The notes under the pieces: model-generated
Told to the model about the DNA's origin: nothing
What the model saw: the letters and a program-made list of their open reading frames with translations, nothing else
Database searches by the model: none
Shown: positions 15,248 through 50,377 of the stretch, one piece after another
Numbering within the stretch: position 1 is the stretch's first letter
Layout of the letters: each line of letters begins with the position of its first letter
DNA from: Archangium violaceum
GTDB taxonomy: Bacteria; Myxococcota; Myxococcia; Myxococcales; Myxococcaceae
Assembly: GCF_016859125.1 (NCBI RefSeq)
Contig: NZ_CP069338.1
Location: 10,729,501 to 10,793,500 of the forward strand
Length of the DNA: 64,000 bases
Direction: 5' to 3'
Translations under genes and position numbers: made by a program

Positions 15248-16311
15248 CGCTCCACCTCCGCGAGGAAGGCGCGCAGCGTGGCCGCGAAGGCCCCGGGCTG
15301 CTCCTCGAAGGGGAAGTGCCCGCTGCCCGCCAGTTCCACCAGCCGCGCGTGGGGCAGGGCTTGTACCACGCGAGCGGTGGCGGAACGCGGCTGAAGGTCC
15401 TCGGCTCCGTGGATGACGAGGGTGGGCGCGCGCACCCGGCGCAGCCAGTCGCTCCAGTCGTGGTGCCGTCCCAGGCTCAGGTAGAGCCCCAGGGAGAGAA
15501 AGCCTCCGGGAGCGCCGGAGCCGGGCGGCCGTGCTCCGGGACGCTCCCGCCGCATGGCCTGGGCGTAGAGAGGTCCAAAGCCCGCGAAGTGCTCGGCGAG
15601 ACGAGCCTCGTCGTCCTTCAGGCGCGCGGGGAGGTCGAAGGTGTGCTCCATCCACACCTCCAGCGCGCGCTGTCCTTCCGCGTCCAGTCGGGCCCGCACC
15701 TGAGTGAAGAGGTCGCCGTCGCCAGCGGGCATCGTCACCAGCGGCGCGGGCGCCACTAGCACGAGGGCCTCCACCCGCTCTGGCCACTCCGCCGCGTAGA
15801 GCGCGGCCACCAGGGCTCCGAAGGAGTGCCCCACCAGCGTGAGGCGCTCACGTCCGAGCAGACGTCGGATGCGCTCGAGGTCCGCCAGTTGAGCGGCAAG
15901 TCCCAGTCGTGCCTCCACCTCCCGCATGGCCTGCCACGTTCCACCCGTTGGAGCGTGGGTGAGCGGCCGCGAGGAGGCACCACAGCCGCGTTGGTCGTAG
16001 AAGTGCCAGCGCAGGGTGTCGCCGGTGAGGACGGCCGCGCGCCACGGCGCTGCTGGAGGCAGGCCCGGGCCGCCGTGCACGACGACGACATCCCTTCCTT
16101 CGCCCACGGCCATGTGGTGAAGCCGCACGCCCGGCGCCACCTGCCATTCCGAGGCGTCGGCCCGCTGTCCGGGGGGAACCTCCAGTGTCTCGCCGCGCGC
16201 GGCCAGCGTCTGCTCCACGGTGCCCGGCTGGAAGAGCGCGCGCCCCATCCACCACCACGCGCCCACCGCCACGCCCACCAGCAAGACGAGTGCTCCAAGC
16301 GCTACCGCCAT
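15244..16311 (-). CDS. Membrane-anchored alpha/beta hydrolase, proline iminopeptidase-like
   Basis: 355 aa from ATG 16311 (GAGGA 6 bases upstream; the frame extends further without a site). An N-terminal membrane anchor (MAVALGALVLLVGVAVGAWW) precedes the hydrolase fold: oxyanion HGGPG (79-83), nucleophile elbow GHSFGA with Ser163, Asp in HGAEDLQP, and His in GSGHFPF. HGGPG is typical of prolyl aminopeptidases and related peptidases or esterases; substrate is unknown. First gene of a two-gene unit with MerR. Confidence 0.85.
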   Translation of the reverse strand: MAVALGALVLLVGVAVGAWWWMGRALFQPGTVEQTLAARGETLEVPPGQRADASEWQVAPGVRLHHMAVGEGRDVVVVHGGPGLPPAAPWRAAVLTGDTLRWHFYDQRGCGASSRPLTHAPTGGTWQAMREVEARLGLAAQLADLERIRRLLGRERLTLVGHSFGALVAALYAAEWPERVEALVLVAPAPLVTMPAGDGDLFTQVRARLDAEGQRALEVWMEHTFDLPARLKDDEARLAEHFAGFGPLYAQAMRRERPGARPPGSGAPGGFLSLGLYLSLGRHHDWSDWLRRVRAPTLVIHGAEDLQPRSATARVVQALPHARLVELAGSGHFPFEEQPGAFAATLRAFLAEVER

Positions 16312-16900
16312 GAGGTTCCTCTGCGACCTGTATCTGGGTGACATGCGTGGAGGGTGGCGGTCTGCCCCTGGGGGAGAGTCAAGCGTGGGCCGTGCAGCCC
16401 ACCCGGGGCTTCCCCGCGCTGAAGGCCTGCCCCATGGCGCCGCCGCCAGGCGCCCCAAGCACCTCGAACCGGCGCTCGTCCTGGCCACCCAGGCGCGCGC
16501 CAGGAGCAGTCATCCGGGAGGGCACCTGCGCCCGGTGCCCTCCCTCGGGAAGGAGTGCTGTCCTCTCTTGTCACGAACCACCGGAATCCGAACGGAGCAC
16601 CGCCCGTGCGACTGGCACCGGTGCCTCCGGATGAACCAGGCGATCAGTCCGTCATGACGCAGGAAAGACTCCAGTGTTGTGACTGCGGCAAGGTCAGGGT
16701 GGTCCAGCGTAATAACAAGTGAACCCACGTCGCATTCGGAAGGGGGCCGGCCCAGTGCTTTCCATCCTGCACAGCAGCCCGGCCCCATCCACCCGCGCCG
16801 TCCCCTGCTTCCTCGGCTCCTCCACCGTCGCCGCCAAGGAGATGCTCTCCTTCTGTGGCCCCGCCTCCCTCCCCGCTTGAGGGAGCCCGGCCCCGGTCAG
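16312..16900. other. Gap of about 590 bp without a convincing gene
   Basis: Small ORFs on both strands lack ribosome sites. One minus-strand frame (about 16,600-16,760) reads DVGSLVITLDHPDLAAVTTL then ESFLRHDGLIAWFIRRH, which looks protein-like but is flanked by non-coding sequence, so it may be a decayed fragment. The AT content is somewhat raised near 16,680-16,740. Confidence 0.4.
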
Positions 16901-17236
16901 TCAGGATCCGCCGGGCAGACGGTCGAACTGGGTCGCGAAGGAGGGTGGGCCGTGGACGTGGGACCGATACGCGGTGTCCCGCGCGGGCACGCTCTGTTCG
17001 ACGTCCATCGTCACGAGTGGCTGGTGGACCTTGACCTGCTCCGCCTCCCTGCCGTGTGTCACGAGGATGCGACCGGCCCATGGGCTGGACACCGTGATGG
17101 GGGTCTGACCCGCCATGACCGCGGCGAGCACCTGGCCCTCCTGGACCGTGTCGAAGGACTTCACGTGCCACCTGACGATCGTGGCCACCGTCACGCCTTC
17201 GTCGAAGCCGGAGATCATGATGTCGCGCAGTGCCAT
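16901..17236 (-). CDS. Standalone biotinyl/lipoyl-like domain protein lacking the modifiable lysine
   Basis: 111 aa. Residues 10-75 follow the lipoyl/biotinyl fold (TIVRWHVKSFDTVQEGQVLA, ITVSSPWAGRILVTHG, EQVKVHQPLVTMD). At the hairpin tip, where lipoyl domains have ETDKA and biotin domains AMKM, it has VMAGQTPIT, with no lysine, so it cannot carry the cofactor in the usual way. The tail is unstructured. ATG has GAGGAG 8 bases upstream. No partner dehydrogenase or carboxylase is nearby, and its role is unknown. Confidence 0.65.
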   Translation of the reverse strand: MALRDIMISGFDEGVTVATIVRWHVKSFDTVQEGQVLAAVMAGQTPITVSSPWAGRILVTHGREAEQVKVHQPLVTMDVEQSVPARDTAYRSHVHGPPSFATQFDRLPGGS

Positions 17237-17415
17237 GGATTCTGCTCCTCGGGTGAGGCGGCCAGGAACGACCGCACGTCCATCAGACTATGTCACCGCC
17301 GGCGAGCACGGTAGGTGCTACAGCCGGAGCGGAGTGGGCATGCGAGGAATCTCCGGGGAGTGAGGTTCCGCCCCGTCATGGATGCAGCACCTGGATGCCC
17401 TGGGACGTCCCCCTG

Positions 17416-17691
17416 TCAGTCTGCGCTCGAAGCCCAGGCGATCAGCGTGCCGATGAGGAAGACCGCGCCGAGCGCGATGACGAGCGCCCAGTTCTCGTCC
17501 GAGCGCCTCGCACTGCCCGTGTTCTGGAAAGGAGCGTCGGGCGGTGGCGGCTCCGGGCGGGGACCCCCCATCAGCTTGGGCAGGATGCGAGGCCCCAGGG
17601 CCAACAGGATGATAATGGCCGCGGTGACGCAGTGGATTCGCGTCCCCGAGCGCAGCGCGATGGAACAGTCCACCAGGGTGATGACGTCCAT
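17416..17691 (-). CDS. Small membrane protein with two helices
   Basis: 91 aa. Two hydrophobic segments (CVTAAIIILLALGPRIL near 21-37 and WALVIALGAVFLIGTLIAW near 68-86) are joined by a Pro-rich linker (GGPRPEPPPPDAP). ATG at 17691 has AGGAG 5 bases upstream. No family recognised. It is probably in an inner-membrane hairpin. Confidence 0.6.
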   Translation of the reverse strand: MDVITLVDCSIALRSGTRIHCVTAAIIILLALGPRILPKLMGGPRPEPPPPDAPFQNTGSARRSDENWALVIALGAVFLIGTLIAWASSAD

Positions 17692-37417: not shown

Positions 37418-38629
37418 CTACCCGCGGACCGCGGAGAGCTTGCGCCGGAACCTGCGCACCCGCTCGACCGCGTCCTGGGGCAGCACGCGCTTGGCCACCT
37501 CGCGCACCTGCCGCATCGCCTCGTCGCGCCGCACGAGCCACGCTCCGCTCCCTCCCGGAGAGAGCACCCGCAGCGACACGGTGCGCCGCTGCCTCGTGGT
37601 CCAGTCGGACTTGTAGGACTCGGTGCCGCGCAGGAAGTCGTACTCGGTGAGCCCGGCCTCGAGGGCGTCGCGGAACGTCTCGCCCACCAGCACCAGCCCC
37701 ACGCTGCGGTTGCGCCAGGCCGGGTCATAGCCGGACTGGAAGTAGATGAAGGAGTCGCGGTGGAGGATGCCGTACACCGAGGCCACCGCCTGCCCTCCCA
37801 CCTTCATCGTGTAGAAGCGCAGCCGGCCCCGCTCGGCCAGCAGTTGCGTGGCATCACGATGGAACGCCTCCACGCCCCGGCCCCGGATGCCCTGAGAGCC
37901 CCCATCCGACTCCCACCGCATCGCGTGCAGCCGGAAGAAGTCCGTCAGCGGCCCCGCCAGCGCGCCCGGCGCCTCCGTCTTCTCGATGCGGTAGCCCTCC
38001 TGCTTCTCCAGCCACTTCTTGCGGCGCAGGTAGTTGTCCCGCCGGCTCGTGCGCTTCAGGAAGTCGTCGAAGGACTCGCCCTTCCCGAGCGACTCGTACG
38101 GGCACACGTACCGCGTGGACAGCTGGAGCTCCGCCCGGTGCTTCTCGAAGGTCTCCCGCAGCACCCGCACCGTCACCGAGTCCTCTCGCAGGTTCGTCAG
38201 GTCCAGCACGTCCCACTGATCCCTCAGCTCCCACAGGGCTCCGGCGAAGGTGCGTGCCACCTCCTCCTCGCGGCCCCTCCTGGCCACCACGTCCAGGTAG
38301 TCGCTGCCCACGTGCGTCTCGCCCAGGAACGCCAGCCGCCGGATGGGCCTGCCCAGCACCCAGTGGTAATCGAAACCCAGCGGCATCAGCCCCACCAGCG
38401 CCCCGCTCCGATCCTTCGCCTGCAGCACGAAGGGCTTGCGGTCCGCTCCGATGCGTCTGCACCACGGGTACAGCCACTCCCATGCGTTGAACGGGCCCGC
38501 CTGGCTCTCGTCCAGCAGCGCGTCCCAGGCGCTCCTCAGTCCCGCCAGCTGGGACAGCTCCCGCACGGTGCCCACTTCCAGCCACCTCGCGGGGCTCGGC
38601 GTGGGTGACAGTTCCGCTTCGTGAATCAC
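37418..38629 (-). CDS. exoI: ExoI-like GNAT/FemAB-type acetyltransferase
   Basis: 403 aa. GNAT fold of the BioF2-like type: GPFNAWEWLYPWCRRIGADR, VGLMPLGFDYHWVLGRPIRR, YLRRKKWLEKQEGYR, FFRLHAMRWESDGGS, FIYFQSGYDPAWRNRSVGLV. GTG 38629 has GAGGT 7 bases upstream. Order and content match the distal end of the M. xanthus exoA-I spore-coat locus, where two such enzymes flank an aminotransferase and are thought to modify the sugar precursor. The symbol is by synteny, from memory. Confidence 0.75.
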   Translation of the reverse strand: MIHEAELSPTPSPARWLEVGTVRELSQLAGLRSAWDALLDESQAGPFNAWEWLYPWCRRIGADRKPFVLQAKDRSGALVGLMPLGFDYHWVLGRPIRRLAFLGETHVGSDYLDVVARRGREEEVARTFAGALWELRDQWDVLDLTNLREDSVTVRVLRETFEKHRAELQLSTRYVCPYESLGKGESFDDFLKRTSRRDNYLRRKKWLEKQEGYRIEKTEAPGALAGPLTDFFRLHAMRWESDGGSQGIRGRGVEAFHRDATQLLAERGRLRFYTMKVGGQAVASVYGILHRDSFIYFQSGYDPAWRNRSVGLVLVGETFRDALEAGLTEYDFLRGTESYKSDWTTRQRRTVSLRVLSPGGSGAWLVRRDEAMRQVREVAKRVLPQDAVERVRRFRRKLSAVRG

Positions 38630-38653
38630 GGTGTCGACCTCGTGTCTCGAAAT

Positions 38654-38689
38654 ACCCTCACCCCGACCCGCTCCCGGAGGGAGAGGGAG
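38654..38689. repeat. REP-like palindrome, copy C
   Basis: ACCCTCACCCCGACC lead followed by arms CCGCTCCC and GGGAGAGGG around GGA, one mismatch from copy B. It lies in the 80-bp gap between exoH and exoI. Confidence 0.75.
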
Positions 38690-38709
38690 GGGTTGTCGTG
38701 TCCGCTCGC

Positions 38710-39885
38710 TCAGCCCGCGTGCTTGCGCGTACGGCGATCCTGCGTGAGCGCGCCTCGCACCACCGTGGCCACCTCCGCCATCACCTCCGGCGAGAGATCC
38801 TGGTGGCAGGGAATCTCCACGATGCTCCGCCGCAGCTGCGCCACCTCCGGGAAGGCCGAGGCGTCGCACGCCGGATGGAAGTGTTTCCAGAAGTCGATGG
38901 CCTCGATGCCCTTGGAGTGCAGCCTCGCCAGCACCTCCGCCTTGTCCGCCACCACCAATGGGTAGAAGAGCGGGCACACCCCCGCGGGCAGCTGGTTGAA
39001 CAGCGGCGCGGACACGTCCCGCAGCCGCCCCAACAGGAAGAAGTAGTTGCGCCGCCGCCGCTCGACGATCGCCTCCAGGTCCTGCGCCTGGGCGATCCGC
39101 TTCGCGAACGGGCTCATCCCCAGGTCCACGTGCCGCCGCTCGAAGTGCTGCGTCCCCGTGGCCACCCGCTGGATGTCCGCCGCCTTCACCGCCCCCTTGC
39201 CGAGGCTCCGGATGAGGCTGCGCACCCCGCGCCCGAACGCGCCCCCGCGCAGCTCCAGGTTCTGCAGCAGCGCGGACAGCGTATGGCTCAGCGTGGAGGT
39301 GAAGGGAGGCGTGGGCGGCTCCGGCAGGCTGTACGAGCGCGGGCCGTTGACGGTGAGCGCCCCACCGTGCGGCAGCGGCAACGTCTTGTAGAGGCAGAAG
39401 ATGCCGATGTCCCCCGTCGTCCCCAGCGGCACCGAGCCGTCCGCGCTCAGCAGCGACAGCGCGCAGTCCTCGATGAGCGGCAGGCCGTGCTTGTCCGCCA
39501 GCCGGCGCATCTCCTCGGCGGGGCTGGGGAAGCCCGCGTAGTGGATGAGGTAGAGCGCCTTCGTCTTCGGACCGATGCGCTGCTCCACGTCCTCCACATC
39601 CACGTCCCAGCGGCTGCCCACCCGGTAGAAGCGCGGCGTGGCCCCGGCGTCCGCCACCGCCTCCACCTCCACACCGTGGTGGTAGGCCGGCATGAGCACC
39701 TCGCCCTTGTCCAACCCCAGCATCTTCACCGTCAGCCACACGGCGTTGCGGGCGAAGTAGAACCAGCGCACGTTGGGCGCGCTGAAGGGCATGAAGTTGC
39801 TCGGCTCGCGCCGGCCGAACAGCATGCCCGGCCACAACGTGGGCAGGGCGGGAACGAACAGCCGGGCATTCGTCATTTCTTCCAT
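38710..39885 (-). CDS. exoH: ExoH-like PLP-dependent DegT/DnrJ-type aminotransferase
   Basis: 391 aa fold-type I aminotransferase: EVLMPAYHHGVEVEAVADAG, GPKTKALYLIHYAGFP, LIEDCALSLLS with the PLP Asp, GIFCLYKTLPLPHGGAL with the likely Schiff-base Lys, and C-terminal FWKHFHPACDASAF. It should put an amino group on a nucleotide keto-sugar, then acetylated by the flanking acetyltransferases. ATG 39885 has GGAGG 10 bases upstream; ATG 39876 overlaps the upstream stop (ATGA) and is nearly as likely. Confidence 0.78.
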   Translation of the reverse strand: MEEMTNARLFVPALPTLWPGMLFGRREPSNFMPFSAPNVRWFYFARNAVWLTVKMLGLDKGEVLMPAYHHGVEVEAVADAGATPRFYRVGSRWDVDVEDVEQRIGPKTKALYLIHYAGFPSPAEEMRRLADKHGLPLIEDCALSLLSADGSVPLGTTGDIGIFCLYKTLPLPHGGALTVNGPRSYSLPEPPTPPFTSTLSHTLSALLQNLELRGGAFGRGVRSLIRSLGKGAVKAADIQRVATGTQHFERRHVDLGMSPFAKRIAQAQDLEAIVERRRRNYFFLLGRLRDVSAPLFNQLPAGVCPLFYPLVVADKAEVLARLHSKGIEAIDFWKHFHPACDASAFPEVAQLRRSIVEIPCHQDLSPEVMAEVATVVRGALTQDRRTRKHAG

Positions 39886-40991
39886 CGCGCCACCACCTCC
39901 CTGGCCACCGGGGCCCAGCGGAACTTGGCCGCGCACATCGCGCGACCCAAAGCCGTATCGTTGAAGACGTAGAGCCACGTGTGGCGGCGCACCTTGTCCG
40001 TCCAGTCCCGCTTCCACACCATGTCCGGCCCGAGGAAATCGAACTCGCGCAGGCCCCGCGTCACGCAGTCGCGCAGCACGTCCTCCATGAGGAGCTGTCC
40101 CGGGCTGCAGTCGCCCAGCGACTCGTCGTAGCCAGGCTTGAGCAGGAAGTAGCGCCCGCCGTACTCCAGCGCGTACTGGAAGGCCACCGCCCGCCCGTCC
40201 AACCTCATGAAGAACAGCGCCAGCCGGCCCTCGTACGCCGCCGTGCGCGCCAGCTCCGAATAGAAGCCCCGCGTGCGCGCGTCCTGCGCCATCGCCGTGC
40301 CCCGCCGGCCCTTCCAGCCGCTCGCCTCCAGCGCGAAGCCCTCCTCCAGCTTCGCCTCCAGCTCGAGCCCGCCTTCCACGCGCTCCACCGTGACGCGGCC
40401 CTTCTCCTCCAGCTTGCGGCGCCGTCGGCGGCAGTTGGCCTTGAACTTGGACTGCAGCGTCTTCTGGTACGCCTCCCACGAGCCCGGCAGCGGGATGTAG
40501 GGCGACTGCAGGGACTCCCACGTCCCCACGGACAGCCCCGCCGCCTTCGCCGCCGCGTACAGGCTCCAGCCAGCGCCACCCTCGGGCACGTCCGTGAGCA
40601 GCAGCACGTCCCAGTTCTTGTCTCCGCGCAGGTGCTCGAGGAACGCCGCCGAGGCCTCCCCGGGATCGCGCGCCAGCAGATCGAAACGGCATGAATGCGG
40701 ATTGGCCGTGGCGGAGAGCTGCCGCACCGGCACTCCGTACATGGAGACACGCCCGGCCATCAGCGGCAGGGCCGCGCTGAGGCGTCCCTCCCCATCCCGC
40801 AGCGTGAACACTCGCAGCCGCGCCTCCGGGGCGAAATCATCCAGCCATATCCGAAAGAATTCATGACGGTAGAAAGGCTCATCAGCCGTGGACTCCACGA
40901 GCGCGTTCCACTCCGGCTCCAGCGCCATGAAGGTGGTCCGGTCGGCCACCTCGACGACACGCGGTGCGGAGGTGAGCTGTCTGGCTTCCAT
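39873..40991 (-). CDS. exoG: ExoG-like GNAT/FemAB-type acetyltransferase
   Basis: 372 aa from ATG 40991; the ribosome site is poor (AGGA 14 bases away). GNAT domain: EPFYRHEFFRIWLDDFAPEA, PLMAGRVSMYGVPVRQLSAT, YQKTLQSKFKANCRRRRRKL, then DGRAVAFQYALEYGGRYFLL and KPGYDESLGDCSPGQLLMED. It is a distant paralogue of exoI. In M. xanthus this gene follows exoF directly, but here a monooxygenase gene intervenes, so exoG must be read from its own promoter or from read-through. Confidence 0.76.
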   Translation of the reverse strand: MEARQLTSAPRVVEVADRTTFMALEPEWNALVESTADEPFYRHEFFRIWLDDFAPEARLRVFTLRDGEGRLSAALPLMAGRVSMYGVPVRQLSATANPHSCRFDLLARDPGEASAAFLEHLRGDKNWDVLLLTDVPEGGAGWSLYAAAKAAGLSVGTWESLQSPYIPLPGSWEAYQKTLQSKFKANCRRRRRKLEEKGRVTVERVEGGLELEAKLEEGFALEASGWKGRRGTAMAQDARTRGFYSELARTAAYEGRLALFFMRLDGRAVAFQYALEYGGRYFLLKPGYDESLGDCSPGQLLMEDVLRDCVTRGLREFDFLGPDMVWKRDWTDKVRRHTWLYVFNDTALGRAMCAAKFRWAPVAREVVARWKK

Positions 40992-41221
40992 GTGTTCTAT
41001 CCGATTCCTGACGATGCAGGGCCCCCGAGGTCCCGCATGCGCCGCAAGGTGGCCACGGACGTTGCCGCCCACAACCCGCGCCTGCCATTTCGCCCGGGAG
41101 GACAGTCGGGTACGCGCGCACAACTGGCCAGCGTGTATGTGATGCCAGAAGCCAGGGGCCGCGGCGCACCGGGCTCCATGGCTCGACGGGCAGGGATTCG
41201 TTCACTTACGATCAGCCGCCC

Positions 41222-42634
41222 ATGCCAACCTCAAGCCCCCTCCCCCTTCCCCCCAGGCCCGTCGGCAAGCACGCCATCGTCTTTGGCGGCAGCATGACGG
41301 GGCTGATCTCCGCGGGTGTCCTGTCCCGTTACTTCGAGCGTGTCACGCTGGTGGAACGCGACCGCTTCCCGGATGGACCGAACCCGCGCAAAGGCATCCC
41401 CCAGGCGCAGCACGCTCATGCCCTGCTCATGCGGGGACTGAACATCATCGCCGACACCTTCCCAGGTGTCCTGGAGGATCTGGAAGCCGCCGGGGCGGCA
41501 GTGGTGGACGTGGGCGACTCCACCGCCGCCTTTGGAGCTGGCGGTTGGCGTCGGCGGTATCATGTGGGCGTCAGGGCCTCCTCGCAGAGCCGGTTGCTGA
41601 TCGACTGGGTCGTCCGCAAGCGCCTGCTGACCTTCGCGAACGTACGCATCCTCGATGGACGTGAAGTGGTGGGCTTGAAGACGAGCGCGGACCGGGCCCT
41701 CATCACGGGCCTCCAGCTCCAGGCCCCTGGTGGCGGGCAGGAGGAGACGCTGGAGGGCGACTGGGTGGTGGACGCCAGCGGCCGTGGATCTCGCATGCCC
41801 CAGTGGCTGGAGTCACTGGGCTACCCCCGCGTGGAGGAGACGCACATCCACGTGGACGTGGGTTACGTCAGCCGACTCTACCAGAAGCCGCCGGGCTTCG
41901 CGCCGGGATGGGACATGCTCGCCCTCACGCCCAAGCTGCCCCAGCAACGGCGGCTCGGACTGATCCTGAGCATCGAGGGAAACCGATGGCTCGTGCAGTT
42001 GGCGGGCTGGCTGGGCGAGGTCCCCTCCGCGGACAACGCGGCGTTTCTCGAGTTCGCCCGCGGCCTGCCCCAACCGCACCTCTACGAAGCCATCAAGAAC
42101 GCGGAGCCGATCGGGCCCATCAACAGCCACCGTTTCCCGCACAACCAGCGGCGCCACTATGAGCGCATGCCCCGCTTCCCCGAGGGCCTGGCGGTGGTCG
42201 GCGATGCCGTCTGCTCGTTCAATCCCATCTACGGCCAGGGCATGACCTCGAGCGCGCTGCAGGTCCAGGCGATGGGTGAGTCCCTGCGAGAGGGGCTGCA
42301 CGGTGCCTCCACGCGCTACCGCCAGCGGGCGGGCCAGCTCCTCAATGGACTCTGGACCCTCGCGACGCTCGGGGACCTGAGCATCCCCGAGGTGAAGGGC
42401 AAGCGCCCGCCGGGGTTCGGCCTGATCCACTGGTACGTCGACCGGCTCCAGACACTCACCAACTACGACGAGGGCGCGATGAAGACCTTCACACGGGTGC
42501 AACACATGCTCGAATCGCCCACGGCCCTGTTCTCCCCGCGGATGCTGATGAAGGTGCTCACCGCCCAGCCCGACAAGGCCGCCCTCATCCCCGGCCCGGC
42601 CCCCATCGCCGCCACCCCACGGCAGGCGGCCTGA
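41222..42634 (+). CDS. FAD-dependent monooxygenase/halogenase-like oxidoreductase, inserted in the exo locus
   Basis: 470 aa. N-terminal dinucleotide fold (HAIVFGGSMTGLISAGVLSR, VTLVERDRFPDG) with a GGSMTG variant of GxGxxG, VVDASGRGSRMPQWLE, and the second FAD motif GLAVVGDAVCSFNPIYGQGM. This is the layout of aromatic hydroxylases, epoxidases and flavin halogenases; the halogenase WxWxIP motif is absent. No ribosome site is seen at ATG 41222. It is opposite in strand to all surrounding exo genes and splits exoF from exoG. A partial second copy follows. Confidence 0.82.
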   Translation: MPTSSPLPLPPRPVGKHAIVFGGSMTGLISAGVLSRYFERVTLVERDRFPDGPNPRKGIPQAQHAHALLMRGLNIIADTFPGVLEDLEAAGAAVVDVGDSTAAFGAGGWRRRYHVGVRASSQSRLLIDWVVRKRLLTFANVRILDGREVVGLKTSADRALITGLQLQAPGGGQEETLEGDWVVDASGRGSRMPQWLESLGYPRVEETHIHVDVGYVSRLYQKPPGFAPGWDMLALTPKLPQQRRLGLILSIEGNRWLVQLAGWLGEVPSADNAAFLEFARGLPQPHLYEAIKNAEPIGPINSHRFPHNQRRHYERMPRFPEGLAVVGDAVCSFNPIYGQGMTSSALQVQAMGESLREGLHGASTRYRQRAGQLLNGLWTLATLGDLSIPEVKGKRPPGFGLIHWYVDRLQTLTNYDEGAMKTFTRVQHMLESPTALFSPRMLMKVLTAQPDKAALIPGPAPIAATPRQAA

Positions 42635-42789
42635 ACGAACCAGGAAATGGGTGGTCCGCCAGCACGTGCGGGCCCTGCCCGACGTGCGCGTCCTGGAGGG
42701 CCGTGGGGCGGCCGGCCTGAAGACGGGTGCCTGTTGTCCCCTCGGATGGTGTTCGAGGTGCTCACCTCCAGGCCCGACGCCGCCGCCCG
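42635..42789 (+). pseudogene. Remnant of a second copy of the FAD monooxygenase
   Basis: One frame reads VRQHVRALPDVRVLEGRGAA then GLKTGA, matching VRKRLLTFANVRILDGREVV / GLKTSA of the intact gene. It passes, with a deletion of roughly 280 codons, into LLSPRMVFEVLTSRPDAAAR, matching LFSPRMLMKVLTAQPDKAA near the C-terminus. The divergence shows an old tandem paralogue reduced by internal deletion rather than a fresh duplication. Its end abuts exoF. Confidence 0.72.
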
Positions 42790-43869
42790 CTACAACCCGC
42801 AGCGCGCCATCTTCATCAGGCAGCGCGCCACCTTGCGGCTGTCGTGGCGGATGCGCGAGCCCTCCTTGAGGAGGTCCGCCTCCACCGGCACGACACCCGC
42901 GCTGATGAGGGCGCGGCGATCCACCCGGACGGGGAACTGGCCCTTGAGCGCGTAGCGACGGGCGGCCTCCTCGGAGGGCGCGGTGCCATTGAGCAGCACC
43001 GCGTCCAGCACCGGGCCCACGTGGTCGATGACGGCGCGCACGTGATCCAGGCAGTCCATGCCGTCCGTCTCACCCGGCTGCGTCATCAGGTTGGCCACCA
43101 TCACCTTGAGCGCCCGCGTCTCGCACAGCGCCTGGGCCACCCCGTCCACGAGCAGGTTGGGCATCACGCTCGAGTACAGCGAGCCCGGGCCGATCGCGAT
43201 CAGGTCCGCGGTGTGGATGGCCTCGATGAGCCCGTCCACCGGAGGCGGCGAGCGCGGGCTGAGCAGCACCTTGCGGATGCGGCCATGGGCGCGACAGATG
43301 GCGCTCTCGCCCACCACCTCGGTGGAGTCATCCATCTGCGCCACCAGCTGCACCGGCGAGGTGGTGCTGGGCAGCACCCGGCCCTTTATCCCCAGCAGCT
43401 CCCCGGAGACGCGCACCGCCTCCAGGAAGTCCCCCTTGAGCTCGGCGAGCGCGGCGATCAGCAGGTTGCCCACCGCGTGCCCCGCCAGCCCGCGCTTCCC
43501 GGCGAAGCGGTACTGGAAGACCTCGCTCAGGGGACTCTGGCTCTTGCCGCCCGCCAGGGCCACCAGACAGTTGCGCACGTCCCCGGGAGGCAGCACCCCG
43601 CGGGTGCGGCGCAGCCGGCCGGAGCTGCCCCCGTCGTCGCTCATCGCCACCACGGCGGTGATATCCAGGCCGGGATCCCCCAGCTTGGGAGCCGCGCGCC
43701 GGGCCAGGCCGCGAAGCACCATGGGGAGCCCCGTCCCACCGCCCATGGCCACGATGCGCGTCGGCCGGAGGTCGAGCGCCTGCAACAGCTCGTTCCGGTT
43801 GCCAATCCGGCGCCCATCGCTCGTTTCCCTCTCCCACGCCTCTTCGAGAGGCGACTGCAGCTCGAGCAT
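42790..43869 (-). CDS. exoF: ExoF-like YvcK/CofD-fold protein
   Basis: 359 aa. YvcK-type Rossmann signature: RIVAMGGGTGLPMVLRG, AVVAMSDDGGSSGRLRR, GVLPPGDVRNCLVALA, GHAVGNLLIAAL, and ADLIAIGPGSLYSSVMPNLL. YvcK proteins bind UDP-sugars and influence central carbon flow and wall synthesis. In the exo locus the homologue is thought to link precursor supply to spore-coat production, though its reaction is unknown. ATG 43869 has GGAGG upstream. Confidence 0.85.
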   Translation of the reverse strand: MLELQSPLEEAWERETSDGRRIGNRNELLQALDLRPTRIVAMGGGTGLPMVLRGLARRAAPKLGDPGLDITAVVAMSDDGGSSGRLRRTRGVLPPGDVRNCLVALAGGKSQSPLSEVFQYRFAGKRGLAGHAVGNLLIAALAELKGDFLEAVRVSGELLGIKGRVLPSTTSPVQLVAQMDDSTEVVGESAICRAHGRIRKVLLSPRSPPPVDGLIEAIHTADLIAIGPGSLYSSVMPNLLVDGVAQALCETRALKVMVANLMTQPGETDGMDCLDHVRAVIDHVGPVLDAVLLNGTAPSEEAARRYALKGQFPVRVDRRALISAGVVPVEADLLKEGSRIRHDSRKVARCLMKMARCGL

Positions 43870-43901
43870 GTTCCATCCCCTCCAACGCCCATCCGAATCC
43901 C

Positions 43902-43953
43902 CGCCGCCGGGCCCCCCGGCGGCGTCAACACCCGGGCCCCCACCAGGGCCCGG
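43902..43953 (-). other. Two tandem GC hairpins in the exoE-exoF gap
   Basis: CGCCGCCGGG (43902-43911) pairs with CCCGGCGGCG (43915-43924), and CCGGGCCC (43932-43939) pairs with GGGCCCGG (43946-43953). They fill most of the 90-bp gap between exoE stop and exoF start. Without T-runs, mRNA stabilisation or processing is more likely than termination. Confidence 0.55.
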
Positions 43954-43959
43954 CCCGAC

Positions 43960-45345
43960 CTACCGCGCACCGCGCGCCAGCAACACGTGCCGCACGGTGT
44001 GGAAGATGATGCCCATGTCCAGGAAAAGGGAGCCGTTCTTCACGTAATACAGATCGAACTCCAGTTTGTTGCGCGCGTCCTCCACCGACGCCCCGTACGG
44101 GTAGCGGATTTGAGCCCACCCGGTGAGGCCCGGCTTCACCGCCTCGCGCAGCCCATAGAAGGGAATCTGCTGCTTGAGCTGCTCGACGAAGACGGGGCGC
44201 TCCGGCCGCGGCCCCACGAAGCTCATGTCCCCCATCAACACGTTGAAGACCTGGGGAATCTCGTCGATGCGCGTCTTGCGGATGAAGCGGCCCACCCGGG
44301 TGACGCGATCATCGTTCGTCCGCGCCCACACCGCTCCGTCCTTCTCCGCGTCCGTGCGCATGCTGCGGAACTTCCACAGCCAGTACGTCTTCCCGTTGAG
44401 CCCCACGCGCTCCTGCCGGTAGAAGATGGGCCCCTTCGAATCCAGCTTGATGGCCAACATCACCAGCAGAAGGAAGGGCGCGGCGCACAGCAGCAGCATC
44501 GAGGCCACGAGGATGTCGAAGACGCGCTTGGCCATGCGCCTCGAGCGGGAGACCGTCAGCTCGTCCGCGAAGACGAAGTCGCTGGTGCGCAGGTGCGCCA
44601 CCGGAATCCGGCGCAGCACGCGCTCGCAGAAGCCGGCGGCCTCGTACACCCGGCGCCCGGCCAGGCGGCAGCGCAGCAGCGCGTCCATCCAGTTGGCCCC
44701 GCGCATGTCGTCCGCGGCCTGCACCACGAACTCGGCGCCGAGCCGCGCGGCCGTCTCGTCCACCTGCTCGGCCGGCGAGCCATCCGCCCTCGGCACGCGG
44801 GGCTCCACCAGCGCGACCACCTGGAAGCTGTCCTCACCGCCCTGCTCGATGACGCTGGCCAGCGCGCGGGCCTTGAGCCCGTCACCCACGATGACGACAC
44901 GGCTGGGCATGCCCACCACCGCGCGAAGCGAGGAGCGCACCAGCAGCGTCCCCACCAGGGCTCCCACGGCGCCGCCGAGCAGCGCCCCCGGAGGCAGGTG
45001 CACCGGCAGCACCGCCGGCGCCATCAGCATCAACAAACCGACGAAGGCCGTCGTCACCCCCGCCGCCTTGAGGAGCCGCGCGCCCCGACCCCGATCCTCC
45101 GCGGCCACCCTCAGGTTGTAGAGATCCATCAGATAGATGGAGAACTGGAACGTGGGGACGAAGGTGGCGCCCAGCAGCAGCAGCGCGGGCCCCGACTGCG
45201 CCAGCGGCAGGTGCGCATCCTCTGGCGCCAGCATCTTCGCGCAGGCCACCGCCCCCAACAGACACGCCAGGGCAATCGCGGCTCCTTCGATGACGAAGAG
45301 CGTCAGCTTCCTGGACGAAAAGTAATGATGGAAAACCCGAAGCAC
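43960..45345 (-). CDS. exoE: ExoE-like polyisoprenyl-phosphate hexose-1-phosphate transferase
   Basis: 461 aa. Several N-terminal membrane helices (FVIEGAAIALACLLGAVAC, ALLLLGATFVPTFQFSIYLM, FVGLLMLMAPAVLPVHL), a CoA-binding-like Rossmann domain (VVIVGDGLKARALASVIEQG), then a membrane helix and the bacterial sugar transferase domain (ILVASMLLLCAAPFLLLVML, KGPIFYRQERVGLNGKTYWL, SFVGPRPERPVFVEQL). It starts spore-coat repeat units by moving a hexose-1-phosphate to undecaprenyl phosphate. GTG 45345 has GGAGGG 8 bases upstream; the longer frame lacks a site. Confidence 0.88.
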   Translation of the reverse strand: MLRVFHHYFSSRKLTLFVIEGAAIALACLLGAVACAKMLAPEDAHLPLAQSGPALLLLGATFVPTFQFSIYLMDLYNLRVAAEDRGRGARLLKAAGVTTAFVGLLMLMAPAVLPVHLPPGALLGGAVGALVGTLLVRSSLRAVVGMPSRVVIVGDGLKARALASVIEQGGEDSFQVVALVEPRVPRADGSPAEQVDETAARLGAEFVVQAADDMRGANWMDALLRCRLAGRRVYEAAGFCERVLRRIPVAHLRTSDFVFADELTVSRSRRMAKRVFDILVASMLLLCAAPFLLLVMLAIKLDSKGPIFYRQERVGLNGKTYWLWKFRSMRTDAEKDGAVWARTNDDRVTRVGRFIRKTRIDEIPQVFNVLMGDMSFVGPRPERPVFVEQLKQQIPFYGLREAVKPGLTGWAQIRYPYGASVEDARNKLEFDLYYVKNGSLFLDMGIIFHTVRHVLLARGAR

Positions 45346-45387
45346 GTATCTCTCCCTCCGACCACCTCGCCCCCCTGCCACACCCCT

Positions 45388-45419
45388 CCCGGCCACGCGC
45401 CCCCTCGCGCGTGGCCGGG
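45388..45419 (-). other. 12-bp perfect hairpin in the exoD-exoE gap
   Basis: CCCGGCCACGCG (45388-45399) pairs with CGCGTGGCCGGG (45408-45419). It is 15 bp after the exoD stop codon and 43 bp before the exoE start. No T-run follows. Confidence 0.6.
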
Positions 45420-45433
45420 CTACCGCCGACGTC

Positions 45434-46171
45434 CTACTTCCGGACGTAGTTCTTCAAGTACGGGGTGTCGCTCATCTCCGCCCCGTTCAACACGCAGCCC
45501 AGGATGGGCGCCCCACCCAGCTGCTCCACGGCCTGGTTGACCGCCCGGGCCGGGGTGACGTTGGCACGCACCACCATGAGCAGGCCGTCCGCCTGGTGCC
45601 CGAGGATCGCCGAGTCGGCGAAGGGCAGCGTGGGCGGCAGGTCCATGTAGACCTCGTCGAAGTGCTCACGCACCACCTTGAGGAACTGCTTCATCCGCGC
45701 GCTGGCCAGGGCCTGCGTGGGCTCCTCGGGCGTGGCACCCGCGGTGATGACGGCCATGCGCGTGGCATGGAAGCGGCGCACCAGGTCGCGCACCTCACAC
45801 TCCCCGCTCAAGAGCTCCGACAGACCCGGCCGGCCCTTGATGCCGAGCACGTCCGCCACCTGGCCGCGACGCAGGTCCGCGTCGATGAGGAGGATGCGCC
45901 GCTCCATGTTCGCCCGGGCCGCCGCCAGGGCCAGGTTCACCGTGGTCACCGTCTTGCCCTCGCCGGGCAGCGCCGAGGTGACACCCACCACCTTGAGAGG
46001 ACGCAGCTCGCGCATCCGCTCCAGCCGGTAGTAGAGGCTGCGGTACTGCTCCGCCGCACCCGAGGCCGGGGCCGTCAGCGAGACCACCCGCTTGTCCACG
46101 GCGTTCGGAGACCCCGCGGCGTCATCCACGCGAGGAAGGAAGTTCCCCGCCCGCTCCATCGTTTGATCCAT
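45434..46171 (-). CDS. exoD: ExoD-like bacterial tyrosine (BY) kinase
   Basis: 245 aa, cytoplasmic BY-kinase separate from its membrane partner ExoC. Walker A VTSALPGEGKTVTTVNLALA, Walker A' RRILLIDADLRRGQVADV, Walker B DEVYMDLPPTLPFADSAIL. The C-terminus ends DTPYLKNYVRK, with two tyrosines as a short autophosphorylation tail. It should cycle phosphorylation to control polysaccharide chain length. ATG 46171 has GGGAGG 6 bases upstream. Confidence 0.9.
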   Translation of the reverse strand: MDQTMERAGNFLPRVDDAAGSPNAVDKRVVSLTAPASGAAEQYRSLYYRLERMRELRPLKVVGVTSALPGEGKTVTTVNLALAAARANMERRILLIDADLRRGQVADVLGIKGRPGLSELLSGECEVRDLVRRFHATRMAVITAGATPEEPTQALASARMKQFLKVVREHFDEVYMDLPPTLPFADSAILGHQADGLLMVVRANVTPARAVNQAVEQLGGAPILGCVLNGAEMSDTPYLKNYVRK

Positions 46172-46211
46172 CTTGTTCCTCCCGGATTCCGCGTTGTTCA
46201 CCCGAAGTCTC

Positions 46212-47633
46212 CTAGTTCAGCGGCGAGTCCGACGAAGACGGTGACGCCACTCCATTGCGAACCCCCGAGGCGGGCATCAGCACCCGCTTCTCCGCCTTAC
46301 CCTGCATGTTCGGGACCACCGCCAGCACGGGGAGGGGCAGGCGATCGCGCAGCTCCTGCGTGTCCCGGATGCTGTCGTCGCGCATCTCCAGCACCACCCC
46401 GACGAGCACGCCCAGACCCAGGGCGATCAGGAAGGAGATGAGCAGGCCGCTCAGGCGATCCGGCCGCGCCGCCGCCACGGGCACACCGGCCGGGGAGACG
46501 ACGTTGAACAGGCTCTCCGCGCTCTTCACCTCGAGGTCCTGCGCCAGCTCGGCCTCCACCCGGCGGGACACCACGCTCTGGTACTTGGCGCGGGCGATCT
46601 CATAGTCGCGGTTGAGGACCCCCAGCTCATGGGCCCAGCGCGGGGTGCGATCCAACCGCTCCTGGTAGCTCCTGGCCTGCTGGTGCAGACCCTCGATCTC
46701 CTTCTGGATGGAGGAGATGAGCTCGGCCACGCGGGAGCGCTCCTGGCGCTCGGCCCACTGGCGGCTCTCTGCGTCCTTGCGGCGCTCACGCATGGTGTTG
46801 AGCTCCTGGGTGAGGCGCTTCACCTCGGGGTGATCCGCCGTCCACGAGGAGCGGGCGGCCACCAGGCTCTGGGTGAGGGAGTGCTCGGCGGCCTCGAGAC
46901 GGCCGGCCTCGCTGTCCGCGGCGTTGCGAGCCCGCGCCAGCTCCGAGCGGCGGGCCTCGGCCACGCGCAGCTCCTCGGACTTCGTCTGCAGCAGCGCCCC
47001 CACGCGCTCCAGCCCGCGCATGTTCATCTCCAGCTGCTCGGGCAGCTCGCCGATGTGGTCCACCTTGAACTGGGCGATCTTCTTCTCCCACTCGGTGACG
47101 CTCTTGGAGAGGGCGACGATCTCGTCCTCGAAGAGCTTCGTGGCACGCGCCGCCTGCTCCTGGCGCGACTTGAGCGCCTGCTCGGAGAAGAGCTGCGGGA
47201 GCCGGTTGGCCACCTGAGCCGCCACGTTCGGATCCGTGTGCGCGTACGTCAGCTCGAAGGCGCTCTCCCCCTCCACGCGCACGGTGAGATCCTTGCGCAT
47301 GCGGTTGACGGCGGCCTCCATGCCCGCCTCGGAGACGATCTCCGGATAGAGGTTCATCTCCTCGATGGCCCTCTGGAGGACCGGACGCGCCATCAACTCC
47401 TGGCGGACGGTGAGCAACCGCTGCTCCACCAGCTCGCTGACGGTGCGCTGCACCATCTCCTCACCGGGGCGCTGCGGTTGCACCCGCACCACCGCCGTTG
47501 CCTCGTACACACTCTGCTGGCTCAACACGATGGCGGCGCCCACCGCGAAAGCTCCCAGCACGATGGCCCCGACCAGCACCTTGCGGCGCCACAGTGCCTT
47601 CAGCACCTGGTCTGCCGTCATCCCACGCTCCAT
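46212..47633 (-). CDS. exoC: ExoC-like Wzz/Wzc-type polysaccharide co-polymerase
   Basis: 473 aa without kinase domain. Membrane helices near the N-terminus (VLVGAIVLGAFAVGAAIVLS) and C-terminus (LLISFLIALGLGVLVGVVLE) enclose a Wzz domain and a long periplasmic coiled coil (about 150-380, RVGALLQTKSEELRVAEARR). A PxxP-like segment precedes TM2. It sets chain length and contacts the BY-kinase ExoD and Wza-type ExoA. ATG 47633 has GGAGGA 6 bases upstream. Confidence 0.88.
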   Translation of the reverse strand: MERGMTADQVLKALWRRKVLVGAIVLGAFAVGAAIVLSQQSVYEATAVVRVQPQRPGEEMVQRTVSELVEQRLLTVRQELMARPVLQRAIEEMNLYPEIVSEAGMEAAVNRMRKDLTVRVEGESAFELTYAHTDPNVAAQVANRLPQLFSEQALKSRQEQAARATKLFEDEIVALSKSVTEWEKKIAQFKVDHIGELPEQLEMNMRGLERVGALLQTKSEELRVAEARRSELARARNAADSEAGRLEAAEHSLTQSLVAARSSWTADHPEVKRLTQELNTMRERRKDAESRQWAERQERSRVAELISSIQKEIEGLHQQARSYQERLDRTPRWAHELGVLNRDYEIARAKYQSVVSRRVEAELAQDLEVKSAESLFNVVSPAGVPVAAARPDRLSGLLISFLIALGLGVLVGVVLEMRDDSIRDTQELRDRLPLPVLAVVPNMQGKAEKRVLMPASGVRNGVASPSSSDSPLN

Positions 47634-47665
47634 GTGCTCTCCTCCTCCTACTCCAGTCACGTGTC

Positions 47666-48832
47666 TCACCAGGCCGTCATGTGGAGGCGGATCGCCGCCA
47701 CATTCCGAGTCAGGTTCAGTCCGGCCGTGGCCTCTTCATCCATCCCCACCTGTGCGATGCGATCCACGGCCGCCTGCATCGACACATACCGATTCACCTT
47801 GAACTCGAGCCCCGCGCCCAGCGCGTAGCCCTGTGCCACCGTGGGATCCTCTCCCCACGAGAAGACGCCATGGCCCGGCGCCCGCCCGTTGCGGAAGAAG
47901 CTCGCCATTCCATACACGGACACCCGGTCACTGAAGTGCTTGTTGAGCACCATGCCCGCGTAGTCCGCCCACAACGCATTGGTGAAGCCACTGGCGCCCA
48001 CCAGGTCATGCCCCGCGATGATGCCCAGGTCGAAGTGCCTGGCCTCATGCAGCAGCTCCAGCTTCACCCGCGGAATCACCCCGCTGGTGCCCTCCTGCCC
48101 GGAGAAGGCCACCGGACCGGCGCGCGCCGTGAAGGTGGTCTGCCGGCTCAGCCGGTAGCGCAGGCCTCCGAAGACACCGTGCGCCTGCTGGAAGCTGTCG
48201 CCGTACAGGAAGCCCTGGTAGCGGTACTCCACGCCCAACGACAGCCGCCGCGTGGTGCGCAGCCAGGCCTCCACGAACGGGGTGTGCACGAAACCGGCGA
48301 CCTGCCCCGGCGCGAGCACCTGCACGCCCTCGAAGCCGTAACCGGCCCCCACGTCCAACCGGCGCGTCGCCCGCCCGGAGACGTACACCCGGGACTGGCC
48401 GTAGAGGACGGGCTCTCTCGAGCGCGCCACGCTGTCACGCGGCAGCGAGGCGGGATCCGTCACCCGGTAGATGCTCCCGGACGCCTCCACCCTCAGGCGG
48501 CGCGACAACAGCTTGCGCACCGACAGGCCGCCGCGGTGATCCAACGTCAGCGAGCCACTGCCGTGCCGCATGAGGAGGTCCGCCGCGTAGAAGCTCTCCA
48601 GCTTCAGCGTCTCGTCCCTCACGTCCAGGCCGAGCCGGGGCGTCAGCTTCGTCATCAACTGACCACCCGCCTGGCCGTCTGCGGCCAGCCGGAAGTCATC
48701 GTCGTAGCGCTCCTCGAGCGACACCCGGAGCCGAGGCTCCACCTGCGTGGCCGCGAGCGCGGCCGGACAGGTGCCCAGAACCGCCGCCGCCACCACCCAA
48801 CCCTTCCATGAACGTCTCACGGCACCCTCCAT
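47666..48832 (-). CDS. exoB: ExoB-like outer-membrane beta-barrel
   Basis: 388 aa. Signal peptide (WVVAAAVLGTCPAALAA), then continuous beta-strand pattern (EPRLRVSLEERYDDDFRL, RLRVEASGSIYRVTD, RRLSLGVEYRYQGFLYGD, YALGAGLEFKVNRYVSMQAA) ending LHMTAW with an aromatic residue. In M. xanthus the equivalent barrel is needed for export of the spore-coat polymer together with a Wza protein that lacks its own membrane-spanning part. ATG 48832 has GGAG 7 bases upstream. Confidence 0.83.
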   Translation of the reverse strand: MEGAVRRSWKGWVVAAAVLGTCPAALAATQVEPRLRVSLEERYDDDFRLAADGQAGGQLMTKLTPRLGLDVRDETLKLESFYAADLLMRHGSGSLTLDHRGGLSVRKLLSRRLRVEASGSIYRVTDPASLPRDSVARSREPVLYGQSRVYVSGRATRRLDVGAGYGFEGVQVLAPGQVAGFVHTPFVEAWLRTTRRLSLGVEYRYQGFLYGDSFQQAHGVFGGLRYRLSRQTTFTARAGPVAFSGQEGTSGVIPRVKLELLHEARHFDLGIIAGHDLVGASGFTNALWADYAGMVLNKHFSDRVSVYGMASFFRNGRAPGHGVFSWGEDPTVAQGYALGAGLEFKVNRYVSMQAAVDRIAQVGMDEEATAGLNLTRNVAAIRLHMTAW

Positions 48833-48883
48833 CCCCACTCTCCGACCCGGAACCGGCCCCACTTCCCCAGGCACTCCACCGCG

Positions 48884-49462
48884 CTACGGCACGACGATGG
48901 TGTCGCCCGGACGAAGGATGAGCGGCTCGTTCTTGTCCGGCGCCTTCACCAGATCGTTGTAGCTCACGGGGATGGTGCTCCCATCCGTGCCCGAGCGGCG
49001 CAGCACGACGATGCCGTCGCGATCCGCGAAGTCCGTGAAGCCTCCCGCCAGGGCGATGGCCTGCAGGATGGACACCCGGCCGCGCAGCGGGTAGGCGCCA
49101 GGGTGGGCCACCTCGCCGGTGATGAAGACGCGGCTGCTGTTCACCTCCCGGACGACGACCGTCACCCGAGGCTCCTGCACGTACGGCTTGAGCGCCTCGC
49201 GAATCTCGTCGGACAGCTCGGTCGGCGTGCGCCCCTCGGCCCTCACCTCGCCCACCATGGGCAGGGAGATGAAACCGTCCGGCCTCACGGGCAGCGTGCG
49301 CGACAGATCCGCGTCACGCCACACCGCCACGTCCAGGAGATCCTCACGGCCGATGCGGTACGGCTGGTCCGAATTGTCCACCTTCCCCGTCGCCTTGTGT
49401 GCGCACCCCGACAGGATGAGCAACCCCAGCACCACCCACCACCTCGCGCTCGTCTTTCCCAT
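48884..49462 (-). CDS. exoA: ExoA-like polysaccharide export lipoprotein (Wza type)
   Basis: 192 aa. Lipoprotein signal (VVLGLLILSGC), then the polysaccharide export domain (DQPYRIGREDLLDVAVWRDA, VRPDGFISLPMVGEVRAEGR) and one SLBB repeat (RVFITGEVAHPGAYPLRGRV). It is short and lacks the C-terminal membrane helix of E. coli Wza, consistent with needing a separate barrel (ExoB). First gene of the locus, with a sigma54-type promoter about 60 bp upstream. Confidence 0.9.
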   Translation of the reverse strand: MGKTSARWWVVLGLLILSGCAHKATGKVDNSDQPYRIGREDLLDVAVWRDADLSRTLPVRPDGFISLPMVGEVRAEGRTPTELSDEIREALKPYVQEPRVTVVVREVNSSRVFITGEVAHPGAYPLRGRVSILQAIALAGGFTDFADRDGIVVLRRSGTDGSTIPVSYNDLVKAPDKNEPLILRPGDTIVVP

Positions 49463-49528: not shown

Positions 49529-49547
49529 TTAGCAGCGGGTGTGCCAA
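49529..49547 (-). promoter_or_regulatory. Sigma54 (RpoN)-type promoter of the exo operon
   Basis: On the minus strand TTGGCAC (49547-49541), five bases, then CTGCTAA. The invariant GG (-24, 49545-49544) and GC (-12, 49533-49532) are exactly 12 bp apart, with one mismatch in the TTGC box. Transcription would start near 49,520, leaving a leader of about 58 nt before exoA. Confidence 0.65.
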
Positions 49548-49723
49548 ACCTCCCACGCGGGCAAAGTCCCCGGATCGTCATGGGTTACGCGCTACAGCCC
49601 CTCGGAACCGTGTGGGATGTCCGGGAAAAAATTCCGGCATCGGCCGTAAGGGAGGGTCAGGATCTCAGTCTTTCTGGCCCCCGGGGTGGGCAGCGCGCTT
49701 CCTCCGCCGCTCCTCGTTTTTTC

Positions 49724-49741
49724 CCTCTCCCTCTGGAGAGG
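49724..49741. repeat. REP-like palindrome, copy D (variant loop)
   Basis: CCTCTCC and GGAGAGG arms around a CTCT loop, preceded by a run of six T. The arms match copies A-C, but the CCTCACC lead is missing. Confidence 0.5.
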
Positions 49742-49821
49742 CGCGTGGCACGCCGCTTGAATTCATCTCTCGCGACGCCCGGGTTCAGACAGGACCGGGC
49801 GAGTGAGGAGCGGACGGGGCT

Positions 49822-50022
49822 ATGAGCAAGGCGGCGGCGGGGGCGGTGATCGCGATGTTCACGGTGGGCGCGGGGATGATGACGCTGCTGGGCTCGGTAC
49901 TGGGCACGTACGCGGAGGCGGCCACGCTGGCGCTGGTGGGCGTGGGATTGTTCGCGGGCAGCTCGGTCCTGAGCGGAAACAAGGACGCGGTGCCTCAGGC
50001 GGGAGTAGCCAAGGAAGCCTGA
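49822..50022 (+). CDS. Small membrane protein with two helices
   Basis: 66 aa. Two adjacent hydrophobic segments (AGAVIAMFTVGAGMMTLLGS and ATLALVGVGLFAGSSVL) and a short polar tail. Codon bias is good, and GAGGAG lies about 12 bases before ATG. It stands between exoA and the toxin gene and points toward the latter. No family recognised. Confidence 0.55.
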   Translation: MSKAAAGAVIAMFTVGAGMMTLLGSVLGTYAEAATLALVGVGLFAGSSVLSGNKDAVPQAGVAKEA

Positions 50023-50377
50023 AGTCCACGAATGAAGGGCTGAAAAAAAGCGGGTGGCGATTGCGCGGGCAGCGCCGCCACGACCACCCGCTTCAGCGAA
50101 ACGCTCGCGGCGCCAGGCGCCCCAATGGGCCCATGTCCGCATGCGTCAAACAATTCAACATTCTTCAGCTTTTCCTGTATTCAACGTTTAGCTAGCTTGT
50201 GAGCGCAAATGGACGGAGCCAGCTCCGGACGCCCGCGCTCCGAGGCGGCACGTCCACGAATGCAGGGGGAAACACATGAGGACGAGCACCCTCGAGGTCA
50301 CCTCCAGCTGAGTCCTCACCCCGGTTCCGGTGAGGGCTCCGTCAACGAGCCTGCGCGGCAACTCCTGGGGATGGACG
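50023..50377. other. Gap of 355 bp with hairpins and an AT-rich segment
   Basis: No gene is apparent. It holds a minus-strand terminator (50043-50093), a segment at about 50,145-50,205 with unusually high AT for this genome that probably carries promoters, and a hairpin CCTCACC/GGTGAGG (50314-50320 with 50329-50335) just upstream of the toxin gene. Confidence 0.6.
50043..50093 (-). terminator. Rho-independent terminator on the minus strand with no gene feeding it
   Basis: AAGCGGGTGG (50048-50057) pairs with CCACCCGCTT (50084-50093); on the minus strand the stem is followed by a run of seven T. On the plus strand no T-run follows. No minus-strand ORF lies just upstream of it (50,094-50,400), so it may end an unannotated RNA. 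Confidence 0.65.

Follow-up and report, generated by a model that had tools for sequence, protein, structure and literature searches.

Spore-coat polysaccharide in Myxococcus xanthus is linked to exoA-I (SPS/MASC), which the accessible part of PMC3858216 describes as a nine-gene locus. According to the available text of PMC9601211, ExoA has 190 residues and the gene for its β-barrel partner lies next to exoA, and the portions at hand of PMC7310880 and PMC3858216 place the co-polymerase and the BY-kinase on separate proteins, in contrast to the BPS locus. A second described system with which the present locus can be compared is the noncontiguous operon menE-menC-MW1733-ytkD-MW1731 of Staphylococcus aureus, where, in the part of PMC7154746 that was available, an opposite-strand gene separates genes that otherwise follow one another without interruption. 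Here, we analyzed a 64,000-nt stretch of the Archangium violaceum genome (contig NZ_CP069338.1, positions 10,729,501 to 10,793,500 of the forward strand; hereafter, the window), which comes from a single-contig genome of 12.68 Mb. In the window, nine minus-strand genes (49462 to 37418) have, by Pfam and TIGRFAM profile models, the domain content to be expected of exoA-I, and one plus-strand gene for a flavin adenine dinucleotide (FAD) enzyme sits between exoF, the sixth gene, and exoG, the seventh. With a probability of about 0.62, we explain this arrangement by a passenger FAD gene, held at the level of the genus, that made exoG-I a separate block.

The distribution of the interruption was determined in 96 family genomes searched at E 1e-60, of which 71 had exoF and 69 had exoG. 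G081 and G082 carry exoF but gave no exoG match, and the exoF match of G026 is partial; in the 69 genomes with both genes, these always lie on one contig and one strand. The gap between the matched stretches was 34–177 nt in all 63 genomes outside Archangium (the window's genus, g1, with six genomes including that of the window), whereas it was 1662–4463 nt in 6/6 Archangium genomes. Measured from the exoF stop to the exoG ATG in 24 loci, the distance was 16–159 nt in 18 and 1659–4460 nt in six. Further, when 23 loci were read gene by gene, a FAD gene in the same antisense orientation was found in the exoF-exoG slot of all five other Archangium loci and in none of the 18 loci from outside the genus. 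The interruption is genus-wide in Archangium, being neither a quirk of a single strain nor common to neighbouring genera. Since all other family genomes with both genes keep them in close proximity, the FAD gene is best read as a derived insertion. In a tree of ExoC-ExoI, Archangium and g6 are sister genera (support of 93 for Archangium and of 98 for the two together), and G080, the next outgroup, has an exoF-exoG gap of 38 nt.

An insertion at this position had been proposed in the initial annotation, and it is supported by the gap lengths, which place it at the genus level; the synteny search across the family showed that the arrangement is not general among related genomes but confined to Archangium. 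The locus thus serves as a natural example, and a clean one, of an opposing gene that broke into a conserved developmental operon early in the history of a genus. By gap length, the boundary of the interruption is sharp (6/6 vs. 0/63), and the slot has kept traces of duplication and decay. The literature covered yielded no described FAD gene inside the Archangium exo locus; the supplementary synteny figures of PMC9601211 and PMC7310880 fall outside that coverage and may draw it.

Judged by its sequence, the interrupted locus is the exoA-I spore-coat polysaccharide locus, an identity drawn from gene order and content, the short OPX protein, the separate co-polymerase and kinase, and the failure of the EPS locus models, in which EpsY scored 138 bits against a cut-off of 320 and EpsZ 147 against a cut-off of 800. 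Of the 18 loci read outside the genus, 16 have these nine genes in this order, the other two being interrupted by contig ends, and this repetition argues against a chance order. The likeness to M. xanthus exoA-I extends to the nine genes, their order, strand and domain content, the short OPX protein and the separate co-polymerase and BY-kinase, and is drawn from published descriptions and domain content rather than from a direct alignment to the named M. xanthus locus. Unlike exoA-I elsewhere, the window has exoF and exoG 1.8 kb apart, with the opposing FAD gene and the remnant of a second one between them; because the single-strand run is broken at this point, we call the locus a variant of exoA-I. 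The spore-coat identity put forward earlier was thereby borne out, as were the order, strand and coordinates of the ten genes in Pfam searches, although three gene starts had to be trimmed.

All nine exo genes are on the minus strand. The first, exoA (48884..49462), would encode a short outer-membrane polysaccharide export (Wza/OPX) protein of 192 residues with Poly_export and SLBB domains, and it adjoins exoB (47666..48874), for the predicted outer-membrane β-barrel partner, whose OMP_b-brl match lies below the Pfam cut-off and whose synteny is conserved. A Wzz-type polysaccharide co-polymerase without a kinase domain is predicted for exoC (46212..47669; PF02706, Wzz) and a BY-kinase of the BtkA type for exoD (45434..46201; PF13614, AAA_31; tyrosine autokinase model TIGR01007 above cut-off), so that, by Pfam, the two functions are encoded as separate proteins, unlike in the BPS locus. 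Next come exoE (43960..45396), for a polyprenyl-phosphate sugar transferase (PF02397, Bac_transf; TIGR03025 and TIGR03013 above cut-off) with four other matches in the same genome, all partial and at most 51% identical, and exoF (42790..43869), for a YvcK/CofD-like protein (PF01933, E 2e-96; TIGR01826 above cut-off). Beyond the FAD gene lie exoG (39873..40991) and exoI (37418..38629), both for GNAT-fold acyltransferases (PF13480, Acetyltransf_6), and, between them, exoH (38710..39885) for a DegT-type aminotransferase (PF01041). The open reading frames (ORFs) of exoI (805 residues) and exoH (660 residues) are inflated, and the starts of exoG, exoH and exoI need trimming: exoG likely starts at the ATG at 40991, which was found in 20 of 24 loci, and translations place the starts of exoH and exoI at about 39885 and 38629, respectively, with homology of exoI beginning at 38620. 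The individual names exoF to exoI are those that we take to apply. In A. violaceum Cb vi76 (L091), exoB matches in two overlapping pieces (16271-17441), a possible frameshift or assembly error, and fragments of a second exoI-like gene were seen near the locus end in G032 (L093, 48-405).

The interrupting gene (41222..42634, plus strand) lies antisense within the exo locus. On sequence and predicted fold, its product clearly belongs to the MonCI/Lsd18 flavin-epoxidase family, within the class A flavin monooxygenases. At E ≤ 0.01, every entry returned by a sequence search of solved structures in the PDB was MonCI or Lsd18/LasC (nine distinct sequences, best 3e-71), and the predicted model (mean predicted local distance difference test score, pLDDT, of 90.7) matched Lsd18 with a Z score of 47.3 (root-mean-square deviation of 2.3 over 453 residues) and MonCI with 45.4, the next family reaching 29.2. 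The protein falls just under the cut-off of the Pfam model FAD_binding_3 (21.2 vs. 22 bits). The likeness to MonCI and Lsd18 thus comprises a full-length sequence match at about 30% identity, a fold match at Z 45–47 and six of the nine flavin contacts. These nine positions, including His57 stacked on the flavin, are named for MonCI in the accessible part of PMC10560226; by alignment, Ser15, Arg37, Ala56, His57, Gly333 and Met336 are identical to S24, R46, A65, H66, G338 and M341 of the window protein, and H66 is nearly invariant among 35 relatives. The family is widespread, with at least 573 related stretches and a member at E 1e-60 or better in 51 of the 96 family genomes, which makes MonCI-family enzymes common, moving paralogs in myxobacteria.

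As for the chemistry, MonCI substrates are described in the available part of PMC10560226 as hydrophobic polyenes or isoprenyl esters, with farnesyl 4-hydroxybenzoate epoxidised in vitro, and because of the latter reaction an isoprenoid or polyene lipid is the substrate type that we propose. By analogy, the most likely reaction of the window enzyme, dependent on FAD, NAD(P)H and O2, is the epoxidation or hydroxylation of C=C bonds in such a hydrophobic lipid rather than in the coat polymer. The window gene differs from those of MonCI and Lsd18 in lying in a polysaccharide locus with no polyketide-synthase domain in the window: the genome has 48 matches to the ketoacyl-synthase model PF00109, none of them in these 64 kb, and a polyether cluster at the locus was rejected on this ground. 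Two FAD paralogs of the same genome, at 5906078-5907409 and 4838806-4840166, lie about 7 kb and 4 kb, respectively, from ketoacyl-synthase matches, which may be a hint that some family members act on polyketide-type substrates; the latter paralog (G000:C1:4838806-4840166) is split over two frames and is likely a decayed copy.

To follow the history of the slot, a tree was built from 52 of the matched FAD proteins, with four short pieces omitted. All eight slot copies belong to a supported clade (96/88) whose 14 members come exclusively from Archangium and g6. In this clade, G003 and G005, whose slots hold two tandem FAD genes, have exoF-side copies that cluster with the lone copy in the G002 slot (100/99), and the slot copies of G004 and G006 pair with each other (100/100). 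The partners of the window copy are non-exo copies from four other genomes (100/99), so that its four nearest relatives are located at other loci. Descent of the slot copies from a single lineage was ruled out by this interleaving of exo and non-exo copies, from which it follows that a stable slot has housed occupants of more than one lineage.

Decay at the slot is seen in the window itself. The roughly 155 bp between the FAD gene and exoF encode two FAD-like pieces on the plus strand, in different frames and together reaching the exoF stop (42645..42793). The first (42645-42725) resembles FAD-enzyme residues 126-152 (E 1.7e-9 by tblastn, ten short intergenic pieces being searched), and the second (about 42731-42793), a C-terminal piece, scored better than 1000 of 1000 shuffles against each of seven FAD C-termini. 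By these resemblances, 42645-42793 is a decayed second tandem FAD copy, which the initial annotation had not seen. The slot has accepted more than FAD genes: in A. violaceum Cb vi76, exoF is separated from the second FAD gene by two small ORFs as well (L091, 10091-11397). A third FAD remnant in this extra 1.4 kb was rejected, as only weak matches were obtained (best E 0.01).

Outside the exo locus, the FAD copies of G031, G002 (two) and G034 have no neighbours in common by rough gene calls, two of their more remote ORFs having only distant matches to other loci (27–35% identity). The non-exo copies of G004 and G006 do have common neighbours, and 6/7 Myxococcus-side copies have a third common setting. 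A copy of the exoF 3' end before exoG was considered as an insertion scar. Within genomes, this test fell below 0.01 in one of 15 (the window, 0/500 shuffles), the next being G042 with 23/500; nine further genomes were too short for it. When the exoF ends of 13 other genomes were compared with 2780 null windows, p ranged from 0.0000 to 0.03 for the g6 block of G031, from 0.0000 to 0.97 for that of G034 and from 0.0014 to 0.98 for the Archangium blocks. Such a copy is thus hinted at in no more than part of g6, and we claim no target duplication. In the history that we propose, a MonCI/Lsd18-type gene would have entered antisense between exoF and exoG in the ancestor of Archangium, or of Archangium and g6, and would since have been duplicated, lost and exchanged within the slot.

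Alternatively, the FAD gene could serve the spore, with its product tailoring the coat or else a pigment or lipid that is co-regulated with it. Its retention at the same spot in 6/6 Archangium genomes is what such a role would lead one to expect, as is purifying selection: the ratio of nonsynonymous to synonymous divergence (dN/dS) is 0.32–0.34 between like slot copies and 0.49–0.52 between tandem copies, the lower values arguing that slot copies are kept as proteins. However, over the same four species pairs, the dN of the slot FAD gene was 0.049–0.134 compared to 0.004–0.059 for eight exo genes (exoB not among them), and it exceeded that of each of the eight in each pair, by at least 1.9-fold, which argues against a role in the conserved coat machine. 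Further, the window copy has its nearest relatives at other loci in four other genomes, and the described MonCI substrates are not sugars. We therefore regard tailoring as improbable, and the suggestion made earlier that the oxidase modifies the coat or a co-regulated pigment is unsupported, its relatives acting on hydrophobic alkenes.

With regard to expression, a sigma54-like site (TGGCAC-N6-TGC; 49532..49546, minus strand), called with the general sigma54 consensus, precedes exoA by about 84 nt, and such a site was found 82–107 nt before exoA in 12/12 genomes examined. Because of this conservation, exoA-F would be transcribed from it. In the slot, the divergent starts of exoG and the FAD gene are separated by 230 bp (40992..41221), where any promoters of exoG-I and of the FAD gene are expected, and exoF and the FAD gene converge. 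Now 1.7–4.5 kb from exoF behind an opposing gene, exoG-I are probably transcribed from this region, shared with the divergent FAD start; a start from a site of their own in the gap is the outcome that we favour. A new promoter element before exoG was nevertheless rejected, since the sequence nearest exoG in Archangium, a conserved block, aligns with the short exoF-exoG spacer of g6 and so is not an added element. No sigma54-type site toward exoG was detected in 6/6 exoG-FAD gaps, unlike before exoA, and neither a sigma70-like promoter nor a terminator-like site was detected at 40900-43000, consensus scans being weak in GC-rich myxobacteria. Toward the FAD gene, three of the six gaps, that of the window not among them, showed a sigma54-like pattern of poor quality. 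Hence, of the earlier proposal that an insertion gave exoG-I their own promoter, the insertion stands, while the sigma54 and sigma70 scans brought no promoter to light.

These same scans bear on a different view, in which exoA-I remain one transcript that reads through the antisense FAD gene, as in a noncontiguous operon; the FAD and exo mRNAs would then counteract one another, expression of the FAD gene in vegetative cells keeping exo low up to sporulation. The lack of a detected terminator after exoF and of a detected promoter before exoG, the single conserved sigma54-like site found, ahead of exoA, and the plain g6-like spacer at exoG would all suit a read-through transcript, and the layout, with an opposite-strand gene inside the operon, is that defined in the accessible text of PMC7154746. 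However, the scans are of limited power at this base composition, and the slot holds one gene, two, or two plus further ORFs, so that the length read through would vary from 1.7 to 4.5 kb. The likeness of the exo locus to the S. aureus operon lies in the gene layout; co-transcription and mutual regulation would be predicted by this view. We consider this view unlikely, and doubtful in the fuller form in which a single sigma54-driven transcript, antisense through a repeatedly replaced epoxidase gene, would tie a lipid-modifying vegetative enzyme to the spore-coat decision by mutual repression. Were the read-through transcript true, a modest case would gain interest, and the locus makes directly testable how exoG-I stay expressed.

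Several observations weigh against the explanation that we prefer, a passenger gene with exoG-I as a separate block. The separate-promoter step is weakened in that the scans detected no promoter motif in the exoG-FAD gap, and the retention of the FAD gene in 6/6 Archangium genomes, together with purifying selection, is equally compatible with a useful link to sporulation. The dS of the FAD gene (0.15–0.39) lies above that of most exo genes (0.07–0.33), and older splits or exchange between copies, not weaker constraint, may be part of its faster change; exoC has a similarly high dN/dS (0.32–0.33) in two of the four pairs. In the enzyme itself, three of the nine flavin contacts differ from MonCI (Ala17 to T26, Leu58 to A67 and Ala140 to V149).

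Lastly, a small hydrophobic ORF of 66 residues (49822-50022, plus strand) diverges from exoA, and the minus-strand ORF at 49657-50142 that overlaps it is probably its mere shadow. G043, G044 and the cut-short G080 gave no match to the 66-residue ORF, which was matched in 20 of the 23 exo loci searched, the two weakest matches at E 0.01–0.02.

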